In this document: positions 2,376-13,937 of the stretch, piece by piece
Position numbering within the stretch: position 1 is the stretch's first letter
Layout of the letters: each line of letters starts with the position of its first letter
Made by a program: the position numbers and the translations under genes
Source: a virus
DNA: 43,451 bases
Direction: 5' to 3' (one strand)
IMG/VR virus record: IMGVR_UViG_3300038428_000168
Coordinates: 1 to 43,451 of that record
Notes under the pieces: generated by a model
Databases searched by the model: none
Seen by the model: only the letters and a program-made list of their open reading frames with translations
What the model was told of the DNA's origin: nothing

Positions 2376-2666
2376 ATGCCTACTTCAAAGAACGACCTAC
2401 AGATTTTGCGGCTGATGATACGGGCCGACATTTTGCAGTCGATTGTCTTTCAGCTAGTAATTGCTTCGCCCGTCGCGCTGATATCCCCAGCTCAAAAACG
2501 TCGGGAAGAGTTGCTAAAACGGCTTGAGGAAGTTGCTCAAAAAGGCGAGCAGTTCTTTTTGCAGCATGAGCTGCGGACTGAGGAAGAGCGCGCTTTGTAC
2601 GCCGATGAGACCCGCGAAATTGTCGAGAAGATGAAGAAGTCATTGAAGTCCTACAAATTGGATTAG
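2376..2666 (+). CDS. IS1595 cargo protein, unknown
   Basis: This is a 96-aa protein from ATG 2376, ending 5 bp before the transposase start. It has a hydrophobic stretch at about residues 20-38 (DILQSIVFQLVIASPVALI) followed by a charged helical region rich in E, K and R that could form a coiled coil. It is inside the inverted repeats and in line with the transposase, so it moves with the element. No family is recognised. Confidence 0.6.
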   Translation: MPTSKNDLQILRLMIRADILQSIVFQLVIASPVALISPAQKRREELLKRLEEVAQKGEQFFLQHELRTEEERALYADETREIVEKMKKSLKSYKLD

Positions 2667-2671
2667 GAAAT

Positions 2672-3586
2672 ATGTCCATGTTCAAACATCCGATGTTCAC
2701 CGACGAAAACGCCGCTCGCGAGGCGCTTGAGGCAATCCGCTGGCCCAATGGCCCGGTCTGCGTTCACTGTGGCGGTACTGAGCAGATTTCGCGCGTGGCT
2801 GGCGAGAAACAGTCTCATCGTCCAGGGTTGCTGTACTGCAATGACTGCAAGGGTCAGTTCACCGTTACGGTCGGAACGGTATTTGAACGTTCCAAGATTT
2901 CGCTGACGAAATGGTGGATGGCTACGCACCTGCTGTGCTCGTCCAAGAAAGGCATTAGCTCCCACCAGATCCACCGAACGCTTGGCGTGACCTACAAGAC
3001 TGCGTGGTTCATGACCCATCGTATCCGCGAAGCCATGAAGGATGGCTTCCTAACGCCTGTCGGCGGCTCTGGTAAGACGGTTGAGGCCGATGAGACGTAT
3101 CTGTCGAAGTCTCCCAAGACCCGTAAACCGGCTGGCGTGCCGTTGAATGCCAAGCCTGCGCCGATGGTTTTTAGCTTGGTCGAGCGCGGCGGAAACATCC
3201 GCTCCATGTATCTGGATCACCGCAATGTCCGCAGCGCCCTGAATGCCCATCTGCACCAGGATAGCCGCTTGGTCACCGACGGCGCGCAGGCGTACAAGTT
3301 CATGATGCCGACTAATGCGCAGCACGAATCGGTCGATCACTCTAAGCATGAATGGGTGCGCGGCGACGTTCACACCAACACGCTTGAAGGTTTCTTTTCA
3401 ATTTTCAAACGTGGACTCGTTGGAACTTATCAGCACATGGATAACAAACATTTGCACCGCTACTTGGCGGAATTCGATTTCCGCATGAATACCCGCGCGA
3501 AACTTGGCATTTCTGACGGTGAGCGTACCCGCATTGCGATGAAGGGCATCGAGGGCAAGCGATTAACGTATCGGCAAGCTGATTAG
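2672..3586 (+). CDS. IS1595-family (ISXO2-like) transposase
   Basis: This 304-aa transposase moves the element at 2328-4582. The N-terminal zinc ribbon uses C30, C33, C56 and C59 (CVHCGG ... YCNDCK). A helix-turn-helix follows at about 85-118. The ISXO2-like catalytic domain shows VEADETYLS (D140), LVTDGAQAY (D203) and HTNTLEGFFSIFKRG (N236, E239), the DDE/N pattern of this family. The C-terminus YLAEFDFRMNTR is also characteristic. Length is normal and no frameshift is seen, so the enzyme looks functional. Confidence 0.95.
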   Translation: MSMFKHPMFTDENAAREALEAIRWPNGPVCVHCGGTEQISRVAGEKQSHRPGLLYCNDCKGQFTVTVGTVFERSKISLTKWWMATHLLCSSKKGISSHQIHRTLGVTYKTAWFMTHRIREAMKDGFLTPVGGSGKTVEADETYLSKSPKTRKPAGVPLNAKPAPMVFSLVERGGNIRSMYLDHRNVRSALNAHLHQDSRLVTDGAQAYKFMMPTNAQHESVDHSKHEWVRGDVHTNTLEGFFSIFKRGLVGTYQHMDNKHLHRYLAEFDFRMNTRAKLGISDGERTRIAMKGIEGKRLTYRQAD

Positions 3587-10884: not shown

Positions 10885-11412
10885 CTATCCAACCTTGGCT
10901 AGGATTCTGGGATTGGATTGGATTGGATTGGATGGTGCTTTTTTGCTACCTGGTTTGCTTTGTGTTTTGCTATTTGTTTGCTGAGGCAACCCATCAAGCA
11001 ACGGATCAGCAATTGCTACATGGTTGCTACCATTTTGCTTGCCGTTTGCTTCATGGTTTGCTACTCGTTTGCTACTCGTTTGCTTGCCGCCTTTGCTGCC
11101 GACCTCGGCTCGTTTTTTTGAAATCTCGAATGCCCTCACGCGATGCGCCTCTAGTCGCTCGTTCACCAATCGGTTTCCGCGGCGGACAAACTTATGGGAT
11201 ACATCTGGCCAAAATCGATCAAATAACTCGCGATCCCATCGCACGAGCTTGCAGATGCTAGCCGGATCGGTCGGCAGCGAATTGGAATCAAGCGTCCATT
11301 GATACCCGAGCAATGTCATGTACAACGATGCGGCCTCCCCATCCCAGTCAGCAGTCGCAGCTAAAAAATCGCCTACGAATAGCGGCATGAATGGTTGCTG
11401 GCGTTTTGTCAC
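10885..11412 (-). CDS. DUF1376 phage replication-associated protein
   Basis: This 175-aa protein has an N-terminal DUF1376 signature: PFMPLFVGDFLAATADWDGE, then EAASLYMTLLGYQW and LVRWDRELF. Such proteins are common ahead of helicase genes in phages and are thought to help initiate replication. The C-terminal third is low-complexity (S, K, N, Q, A) and its DNA is built from a repeated AGCAA motif. The last codons lie in a five-base repeat (AATCC), so slippage would change the reading frame close to the helicase start. Confidence 0.8.
   Translation of the reverse strand: MTKRQQPFMPLFVGDFLAATADWDGEAASLYMTLLGYQWTLDSNSLPTDPASICKLVRWDRELFDRFWPDVSHKFVRRGNRLVNERLEAHRVRAFEISKKRAEVGSKGGKQTSSKRVANHEANGKQNGSNHVAIADPLLDGLPQQTNSKTQSKPGSKKAPSNPIQSNPRILAKVG
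10910..10933. repeat. Pentanucleotide GATTG repeat
   Basis: Plus strand reads four GATTG units followed by GAT at 10911-10933. It lies in the last codons of the DUF1376 gene. Since five is not a multiple of three, gain or loss of a unit shifts the frame. Confidence 0.85.
10943..11097 (-). repeat. Iteron-like AGCAA cluster, candidate replication origin
   Basis: Twelve copies of AGCAA (TTGCT on plus) occur in 155 bp, several in longer units such as GTAGCAAACGA (twice in tandem) and AAGCAAACG. They lie inside the 3' part of the DUF1376 gene, just upstream of the helicase and primase. Lambda-type phages put origin iterons inside an initiator gene in this way. The repeats may alternatively reflect a repetitive peptide linker. 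Confidence 0.45.
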
Positions 11413-12196: not shown

Positions 12197-12382
12197 ATGA
12201 CCACCCTACGCGACCTAACCATCAGCACCCTTGGCCCGGTGTCCACTGACGGCATCACGGTGCATGAACACTACCTGCCAGCCCGCCGGGCCTGCGCACA
12301 GAGCGAAACCGACAACATACCTGCGCGCCCCTACGGCACCGGGGTTGACGGGATGGCCATTTACAAAGGCTTGCAACTGTGA
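12197..12382 (+). CDS. First gene of early operon, hypothetical
   Basis: This 61-aa protein from ATG 12197 has AAGGA upstream. Sequence MTTLRDLTISTLGPVSTDGI ... ARPYGTGVDGMAIYKGLQL matches no family I know. Its TGA overlaps the GTG of the next frame (GTGA). As the first gene after the divergent control region it is likely expressed immediately on infection. Confidence 0.6.
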   Translation: MTTLRDLTISTLGPVSTDGITVHEHYLPARRACAQSETDNIPARPYGTGVDGMAIYKGLQL

Positions 12383-12999
12383 CCAGCATGGCCTTGGCGC
12401 CCACACCGGACCACTGGCCTGGGCGGCAGTGCCAGCATCAAGAAGCTATGAAGAAACAGGACGTTTCGCCCCCGTTGGGACGGATTCACCGCAAGACCGC
12501 GAATCAGCGCAAGGACGCGCTGCATAAGTTTTCGAGAAAGATGGTCGATCAGTATCAGGAGATAGTCGTCGGCGATGTCAGCAGCACCAATCTCGTGAAA
12601 ACCAAGATGGCGAAATCCGTCTTGGATTCCGGGTGGGGCATGCTCAAGAACTTCCTGGATTACAAGAGCCAGTCGGCTGCCCGGAACTTCTCAGTCGTCA
12701 GCGAGAGAAACACATCGCGAGTTTGTTCTAGCTGTGGCAGCGCAAGCGGCCCCAGCGGTCTAAGGCAGCTCGTTGTAAGGTCTTGGATATGTAGTGAATG
12801 TGGTGACACTCACGACCGCGACGTCAACGCCGCGAAGAATATCCTGATCGGGTCCAGATGTCGGACCTCCGAGCGCGGGAACGAGTCATCGGACTCGCTG
12901 GTTCCGTCGAGCAGGCTGCAAGCGCCGTCGCGAGACAGGGACAGAAACAGCGAGGACGGCGGCATGAGCACCGGTGGATTTAACAAAGGGGAAGGTTGA
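12379..12999 (+). pseudogene. C-terminal TnpB remnant fused to a phage ORF start
   Basis: The 206-aa frame starts at a GTG coupled to the gene before it. The first 30 residues look phage-derived. From about residue 31 (GRIHRKTANQRKD) it matches the C-terminal half of TnpB: VVGDVSS (RuvC-II region), AKSVLDSGW, zinc finger CSSC ... CSEC, and DRDVNAAKNIL (RuvC-III). The N-terminal half with the RuvC-I aspartate and RNA-binding lobe is missing, so it cannot be an active nuclease. No tnpA or element ends are nearby. The frame stays open and its stop overlaps the next start (TGATG). Confidence 0.75.
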
Positions 13000-13937
13000 T
13001 GAGTGCGAAGAAAACCACGAAGGCCACTGCGGAGTCCGCCGAGATCATCACGGCATACAAGGGATTCGACGCCTCCATGCAGTGCCGAGGCTATCAGTAT
13101 AAGATTGGTGAGACCTACAAACACGCGGGTGAAGTCAAAGTGTGCGAGTCGGGTCTGCATTCGTGCGAAAACCCGCTCGATGTTTTCAGCTACTACCCGC
13201 CTGGCGTATCGGTGTTCGCCGAGGTCGAAGCAAGCGGGAAGATCGCGCGCCATAACGGTGATAGTAAGGTCGCGAGTGGCAAGCTTCACGTCAAGGCGAT
13301 GATCTCGCTGCCTGATTACATCGGCCGCGCGATTGCGTGGGCGACGGCGCATTGCGATCCATCGACATCGAAACATGCGGAGGCGGAACGCGCCGCATCG
13401 TCGGCCACCGGGGACAGTTCCGCATCGTCGGCCACCGGGGACAGTTCCGCATCGTCGGCCACCGGGGACAGTTCCGCATCGTCGGCCACCGGGTACAGGT
13501 CCGCATCGTCGGCCACCGGGTACAGGTCCGCATCGTCGGCCACCGGGTACAGTTCCGCATCGTCGGCCACCGGGTACAGTTCCGCATCGTCGGCCACCGG
13601 GGACAGGTCCGCATCGTCGGCCACCGGGGACAGGTCCGCATCGTCGGCCACCGGGGACAGGTCCGCATCGTCGGCCACCGGGTACAGGTCCGCATCGTCG
13701 GCCACCGGGTACAGTTCCGCATCGTCGGCCACCGGCATCGCGGCCGTCGCCATGAGCATTGGCCGATTTGGCCGAGCCAAAGCGAGCGAAGGCGCGGCCA
13801 TCGTTCTTTGCGAACACGATGATAAAGGCAATCTGCTGCACATCCGCGCGAGCCGCGTTGGCGACAACGGGATCGAGCCCGATGTTTTCTACATGCTGGT
13901 CGGCGGCGAGTTCGTGAAGTGGGATGTGCCGTCGTGA
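12999..13937 (+). CDS. DUF7666-like protein with 9-residue SASSATG repeats
   Basis: This 312-aa protein has a GGGGAAGG ribosome site. The N-terminal domain (TAYKGFDASMQCRGYQYKIG, then CESGLHSCENPLDVFSYYPP) is a widespread phage and bacterial domain that I know as DUF7666. Residues about 133-245 are twelve 9-residue repeats SASSATG(D/Y)(S/R) plus one partial, likely a beta-solenoid stalk. A conserved C-terminal domain (ASEGAAIVLCEHDDKGNLLH...) follows. The repeats resemble YadA-type and other head or stalk rolls in being small, polar and Gly/Ser/Ala-rich. Function is unknown. Confidence 0.75.
   Translation: MSAKKTTKATAESAEIITAYKGFDASMQCRGYQYKIGETYKHAGEVKVCESGLHSCENPLDVFSYYPPGVSVFAEVEASGKIARHNGDSKVASGKLHVKAMISLPDYIGRAIAWATAHCDPSTSKHAEAERAASSATGDSSASSATGDSSASSATGDSSASSATGYRSASSATGYRSASSATGYSSASSATGYSSASSATGDRSASSATGDRSASSATGDRSASSATGYRSASSATGYSSASSATGIAAVAMSIGRFGRAKASEGAAIVLCEHDDKGNLLHIRASRVGDNGIEPDVFYMLVGGEFVKWDVPS
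13395..13735 (+). repeat. Twelve 27-bp tandem repeats plus a partial thirteenth
   Basis: The unit begins GCATCGTCGGCCACCGGG and continues (G/T)ACAG(T/G)TCC. All 12 full copies are identical except at those two sites. In order the encoded pairs are DS, DS, DS, YR, YR, YS, YS, DR, DR, DR, YR, YS, so each of the four combinations occurs three times. The array is an in-frame part of the DUF7666-like gene and is open in all six frames. Confidence 0.95.

Follow-up and report, generated by a model that had tools for sequence, protein, structure and literature searches.

Variation confined to two adjacent residues in the nonapeptide repeat array of a phage DUF7666 gene

A gene for a 312-residue DUF7666 protein, found in a 43,451-bp viral record of IMG/VR (the window, that is, the whole stretch of DNA that was analysed), contains a tandem array of nine-residue units that differ from one another almost only at two adjacent residues, here called x1 and x2. 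In its relatives, too, variation is confined to x1 and x2, the arrays turn over rapidly and the gene lies among early genes. The best explanation, to which we give a probability of about 0.55, is that the array is a variable intracellular binding module, carried on a head resembling an ADP-ribosyltransferase (ART), shuffled by recombination and kept diverse by selection.

The features of the gene and of the reading frame before it are as follows.

12379..12999, + strand: TnpB/IS605-type transposase, C-terminal fragment; listed for context, outside the system (phrog_506)
12999..13937, + strand: DUF7666 protein gene, 312 aa; its start ATG and the stop codon of the preceding ORF overlap in TGATG
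13047..13322, + strand: N-terminal DUF7666 domain, residues 17-108, predicted ADP-ribosyltransferase-like fold (Pfam, domain model, VIA)
13392..13412, + strand: partial first core, AASSATG, preceding the first full unit (read from sequence)
13413..13736, + strand: array of 12 full 27-bp units, x1-x2-SASSATG (TRF, in-frame reading, model)
13737..13934, + strand: C-terminal cap domain with family-wide conservation, weakly YdhT-like (alignment A1, NCBIfam, BLASTP)

The sequence-only reading had called the host protein of the array a DUF7666-like phage protein, and it does belong to PF24703 (DUF7666; E 8e-35, 119.7 bits against a cut-off of 27, residues 17-108). It also matches phrog_4433, a family of unknown function, over its full length (E 1e-106). 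The upstream frame matches the phrog_506 transposase at profile positions 240-363 of 403. It ends one base inside the array gene's start codon, so that the two may be translationally coupled. The other neighbours in the window are helicases, a primase and methyltransferases. A second short, degenerate tandem repeat, with an 11/23/34-bp period, lies at 11013-11089 within a primosomal-protein-like ORF (10885-11412).

Tandem Repeats Finder reported a 27-bp period with 12.7 copies at 13393-13735, with 97% matches and no indels. The variable sites are GAC/TAC at x1 (D/Y) and AGT/AGG at x2 (S/R), and the units run DS DS DS YR YR YS YS DR DR DR YR YS. The twelve repeats and the equal numbers of the four D/Y and S/R combinations (DS 3, YR 3, YS 3, DR 3) had been counted correctly from the sequence. 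The absence of silent change that had been claimed with them has one exception, at the border, where the final codon of the last copy is GGC and not GGG. The further suggestion, that selection may lie behind the contrast of silent and replacement changes, was weak as argued: one array in which two sites vary, each changing the amino acid, says little about selection by itself, and the strength comes from about 145 arrays in relatives. The 3:3:3:3 split has a probability of 0.022 under equal odds, computed after the fact, and since it does not recur in the relatives it is probably a coincidence. Like units cluster in the window array (six adjacent identical pairs, p=0.0066), and these runs are atypical, the larger of our two array samples avoiding identical neighbours. 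An assembly artefact is an unlikely origin of the array. The longest exact repeat inside it is 79 bp, and a second contig (L003) carries the same gene and array inside an identical 6.9-kb stretch, which makes the window assembly credible.

A scan of viral contigs yielded 71 relatives, nearly all with a like array, on differing phage backgrounds. The first sample comprised 48 arrays, one per distinct 21-nt core DNA, from a locus set that was partly recruited by the motif SASSATGY. Replacement polymorphism was found at x1 in 47 of the 48 arrays and at x2 in 46, and core codons contributed three cases in total, a count that would miss core changes at the fixed residues by which units were recognised (S, T and G here, and a larger number in the second sample). 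Silent polymorphism occurred in 12 of 432 array-codon cases. When spread replacement alleles were assigned to the bases of the unit, 45 fell on base 1, 7 on base 4, 11 on base 5 and 28 on base 6, with 3 at all other bases together; spread silent alleles numbered 8 overall. Both GAC and TAC were present in 48/48 arrays and CAC in one, while AGC stood together with AGT in a single one of the 28 S/R arrays. The alleles were one base apart at x1 in 36/36 arrays and at x2 in 29/36, where random synonymous codons would give 15.3 and 6.6, respectively. Over both samples the silent third base of x1 was polymorphic in 1/145 arrays and the first base in nearly all. The core reads SASSATG in 40 of the 48 arrays. 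SASSATG arrays differ from one another in their core DNA at a mean of 6.9 of 21 bases, and all of these differences are silent, which indicates that the protein sequence is what is kept. On these comparisons, concerted evolution homogenises each array, with selection at the protein level maintaining the core. Copy number ranged from 4 to 32 units, and the letter sets vary by lineage (S/R, Q/R/W, N/K/Y, DY/YQ/NR).

The pattern was replicated in a second sample. Two scans with Pseudomonas and ES18 homologues gave 97 distinct arrays with the cores SAASNTG or SAATNTG. In these, x1 varied in 97/97, x2 in 96/97 and the core in 2. Their letters include DY, YQ, NR, YR and DW. Silent variation was commoner in this sample (at most 19/97 arrays at one codon), with none at x1. 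A Geobacteraceae copy has the core GAASNSG and a wide x1/x2 alphabet; in all arrays, this copy included, the variable pair is the two residues after the glycine. The ES18 gene used as a query against E. coli genomes gave no match. The earlier expectation that replacement diversity is kept and silent diversity is not was thus borne out over 48 + 97 arrays.

Two regularities of codon choice accompany the variation. In SASSATG arrays x1 almost always ends in C, including in phages with AT-rich cores. The excess of C-ending x1 codons over the prediction from flank codon use reaches 10^-30 on the assumption of independent arrays and flank codon use, and an estimate against the cores' own preference for C is nearer 10^-4 to 10^-5; as the former figure rests on those assumptions, we treat the excess as unexplained and not as proven. 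At x2, the Ser/Arg codons of the 28 S/R arrays are paired as AGC/AGA in 14, AGT/AGG in 11, AGC/AGG in 2-3 and AGT/AGA in none (Fisher 6e-6), a pairing that mutation bias or shared descent may explain. A trans-phage balanced polymorphism of the x2 codons was unsupported, the x2 codon class changing 21 times as compared with 12-17 for core codons on a weakly supported tree of the N-terminal domain.

The arrays change much faster than the DNA around them, to the point that unrelated arrays can stand beside identical flanks. Eleven pairs of loci share at least 99.9% flank identity; arrays are identical in 4 of the 11 and differ in the rest. Judging from contig names, the four identical pairs (L133/L219, L099/L211, L010/L076 and L009/L018) look like duplicate records or two copies per assembly. 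Three pairs (L086/L117, L040/L041 and L012/L088) have identical 1.9-kb flanks and different arrays. Pseudomonas phage 5399 (L086) and a prophage (L117), for instance, have 12 and 21 units beside 1,900 flank bases without a difference. Below 99% flank identity the edit distance between arrays equals the shuffled expectation. One identical array in all relatives, which the sequence-only reading had named as speaking against it, was not what we found: the nearest distinct relative of the window (L002) has 11 units in a different order and with different core codons. The proposal that arrays grow and are reordered from a small stock of variants is supported by these comparisons of flank and array and by an 8-unit duplication in L041 relative to L040. 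In Acinetobacter phages derived from one prophage, three variants of the 27-bp repeat in 6-13 repetitions have been described, and the authors thought that some changes in these phages arose during propagation (PMC7354433). A matching partner encoded next door is unlikely, as arrays differ beside an identical 1.2 kb on the left and 0.7 kb on the right.

Linkage equilibrium holds between x1 and x2 in the D/Y x S/R arrays (73/63/65/51, CMH z -0.47), which requires much recombination. Recurrent mutation was considered as the cause and rejected: it would mix silent alternatives, and S/R arrays hardly ever contain such mixtures, so recombination is the better source. In the Pseudomonas type x1 and x2 are mostly linked as DY, YQ and NR, so the rate or the selection differs by lineage. 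The avoidance of identical neighbours in the second sample (lag-1 z -3.8) is evidence against a process driven mainly by slippage of single units; by its runs, the window array is an exception. Short-read assemblies are the source of many arrays, and many contigs are broken within the repeats, so the unit order of any one array may be in error. Viral contigs that end within the array include L025-L047, L051-L072 and others. Several have both ends in it (L030/L060, L034/L045, L037/L061, L042/L070, L044/L049, L028/L067 and L058/L072), as if circular genomes had been opened by the assembler at the repeat. In the public record of Vibrio phage 1.185.O (L100), a like array at 1848-2065 is annotated as four CRISPR spacers. 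The family carries a warning: its arrays fragment assemblies and may be taken for CRISPR spacers in annotation.

The repeat had been proposed to form a beta-solenoid, and this is what structure modelling predicts. The full-length AlphaFold model, built on alignment A1, has a pLDDT of 77.8, with about 75-80 in the array. Each repeat is modelled as a 7-residue strand (x2-SASSAT) and a 2-residue turn (G-x1), which puts D/Y within the turn and S/R at the start of the strand. VIA matched the array model to beta-helix and RTX folds, with Z values of 8.5 (6sus) and 10.2 (Vag8). Tyr at x1 shows a period of 2 in one sample (z 3.9, p 0.0008), and the periodicity is weaker in the 97-array sample (x1 p 0.10, x2 p 0.003); two repeats per solenoid turn would fit this placement. 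The DUF7666 domain modelled alone reached a pLDDT of 94.9. Nearly all of its top VIA rows are ART proteins, with Arr at Z 6.3, Tpt1 at 5.2 and PARP13/14 at 4.3-4.7, followed by values of 2-3. All the ART fold matches lie below Z 8 (best Z 6.3-6.7), the best Foldseek E is 0.03, and the domain's sequence profile matches up to E 10 included no ART protein of solved structure. With these middling Z values an ART fold of the N-terminal domain is likely but not certain, and its activity is putative. The label 'ADP-ribosyltransferase' carried by a homologue in Acinetobacter phages is in line with the fold matches. K4, H37, D71 and K73 (domain numbering), conserved through the DUF7666 domain, are candidates for catalytic residues.

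Where the gene lies bears on where its product may act. The array gene is found among early or cargo genes, in temperate relatives adjoining cI, N, cIII and kil; in lambdoid relatives such as ES18 its place is after cI or N and ahead of cIII and kil. In SEN22 it adjoins a superinfection-exclusion gene. The lambdoid cI/N-cIII-kil region often holds host-interaction genes. No secretion signal was noticed on reading the sequence of the array protein. The gene lies outside the structural module. Mass spectrometry of phage YA3 identified 13 virion proteins, and the homologue there, ORF46, was not one of them (PMC7326022). The suggestion of a surface role or of a stalk is therefore unsupported, and the protein is not to be counted among virion fibres.

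The array occurs in phages from a wide range of bacterial groups, and frameshifted copies indicate that loss of the gene is tolerated. In fEg-Aba01 (L089) and TC7 (L097) the frameshift lies inside the array or just before it and truncates or garbles the protein; fEg-Aba01 had no gross phenotype (PMC7354433). The copy of phage Emek is also annotated as frameshifted. On circular Salmonella plasmids of ~5.9 kb (L103, H123-H140), a DUF7666 gene with no more than about three repeats accompanies lambdoid early genes (antitermination, HTH, ParA). Rheinheimera phage Barba17A (L101) has at 2471-3448 a DUF7666-like head with xxNTG pentapeptide repeats, in which the xx resembles the variable pair; over 100 isolates exist.

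Taken as a binding module, the protein would consist of an ART-fold head followed by a thin beta-solenoid, with the x1/x2 side-chain pair repeated along the edge of the rod. Single-base changes would create new x1/x2 letters. Repeat recombination, by unequal exchange and by duplication or deletion of blocks, would then multiply, delete and shuffle units and keep the core uniform, with exchange between related phages as a possible further part. Selection would hold the core small and rigid and would keep several x1/x2 letters in every array. We infer that it is binding to a variable target that keeps the array diverse, so that lineages would present ever-new combinations to that target, presumably a host or competitor factor. 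A bolder version would make the x1/x2 pairs a readable code, with one pair for each element of a linear ligand, either nucleic acid or peptide. The array would then direct the ART-like head to a target defined by its sequence, and repeat shuffling would re-aim a re-programmable ADP-ribosyltransferase-like weapon or counter-defence. We judge this version highly improbable.

The alternative that we take most seriously, unlikely as we hold it, is that the mix of D/Y and S/R is needed for folding or packing of the solenoid, for example through Tyr ladders on one edge or by avoiding Asp-Asp stacking, and not for recognition. It accounts for the period-2 placement of Tyr, at x1 in the first sample and at x2 in the second, for the avoidance of identical neighbours and for the presence of both D and Y in 48/48 arrays. 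These preferences are weak, however; the order is otherwise random and is not conserved between near-identical phages, the letter sets change between lineages, and the Geobacteraceae copy uses many letters. Nor do we favour the simpler view that x1 and x2, lying in exposed turns, accept any small set of residues, repeat turnover and constraint on the core being sufficient. The modelled positions, the frameshifted copies and the generally fast turnover agree with such tolerance, but it should admit silent letters too. The near-invariance of the third base of x1 and the constant company of GAC and TAC, with CAC in one array, leave it strongly disfavoured.

Mechanisms acting on the DNA itself are still less probable. 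A diversity-generating retroelement or similar system directed at both sites, in place of selection, would explain why changes fall almost only on unit bases 1 and 4-6. Such a system should also have produced silent and His alternatives, whereas AGC with AGT and CAC are each confined to one array; moreover, the 43.5-kb record, which may be a fragment, has no match to RVT_1 and thus no reverse transcriptase was found in it. We consider targeted mutagenesis very improbable. About as hard to credit is a DNA-level element, such as the in-gene iterons of the lambda O gene, to which the protein reading would be secondary. The uniformity of the repeat DNA within each phage and the C-ending x1 codons in excess of flank use would suit it, yet the core protein is constant between phages while its DNA differs silently, and a copy number of 4 to 32 also speaks against it.

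The variable binding module that we prefer has parallels elsewhere. The WD40, ANK and TPR repeats of fungal NLRs of the HET-D/E type combine concerted evolution, a few hypervariable positions, diversifying selection and a role in recognition. They differ from the phage array in fold, repeat length, organism and effector domain. TAL effectors share with the phage arrays a row of tandem repeats that are nearly the same except at two adjacent residues; in both, copy number and order reshuffle fast and the repeats are hard to assemble. TALE repeats are helical and bind DNA, whereas the phage array has nine-residue repeats with predicted beta strands, in an early gene and behind an ART-like head; it is not a TAL effector by the usual definition (helical DNA-binding repeats of about 34 residues). 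A published length for TALE repeats is 33-35 residues (PMC4853030). RTX beta-rolls and autotransporter beta-helices are beta-solenoids, as the array model is, and RTX units also have nine residues. The array unit, GxxSASSAT, is without the calcium motif GGxGxDxUx and so is not RTX, and in contrast with both groups the array gene lies among phage early genes. It is likewise not a pentapeptide repeat (A(D/N)LXX), having a period of 9 and no Pfam match of that kind.

Closer relatives have been met before. E. coli YdhT (PRK09946) has nonapeptide repeats and a similar C-terminus; BLASTP gives E 2e-6 over the repeats and C-terminus, and the C-terminal cap matches NCBIfam PRK09946 below the cut-off. 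YdhT differs in its far-diverged repeats, its N-terminal part and its place in the chromosomal ydh operon. By its sequence, ydhT (L102:6748-7560, E. coli K-12) looks like a diverged chromosomal relative of the array gene. The 'ADP-ribosyltransferase' genes of Acinetobacter phages fLi-Aba02/03 and fEg-Aba01 belong to the same family and have the same 27-bp repeats; in the part of that account available to us, the repeats are noted as a region of difference and the gene is proposed as a toxin-antitoxin pair, with the diresidue pattern, selection and a solenoid not found there (PMC7354433). That passing note of variants and number differences of the 27-bp repeat is the one previous description in the literature we searched, which held no paper on DUF7666 or SASSATG and nothing relevant on phage with repeat or solenoid.

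With a very short and simple repeat, the array is laid out in the manner of modular recognition proteins. Should it prove not to bind, it remains an example of how strongly diversity can be kept at two positions inside a homogenised repeat. If it does bind, these phages hold a natural library of variable solenoids, which would allow a direct test of what opponent the phage early genes are racing against.
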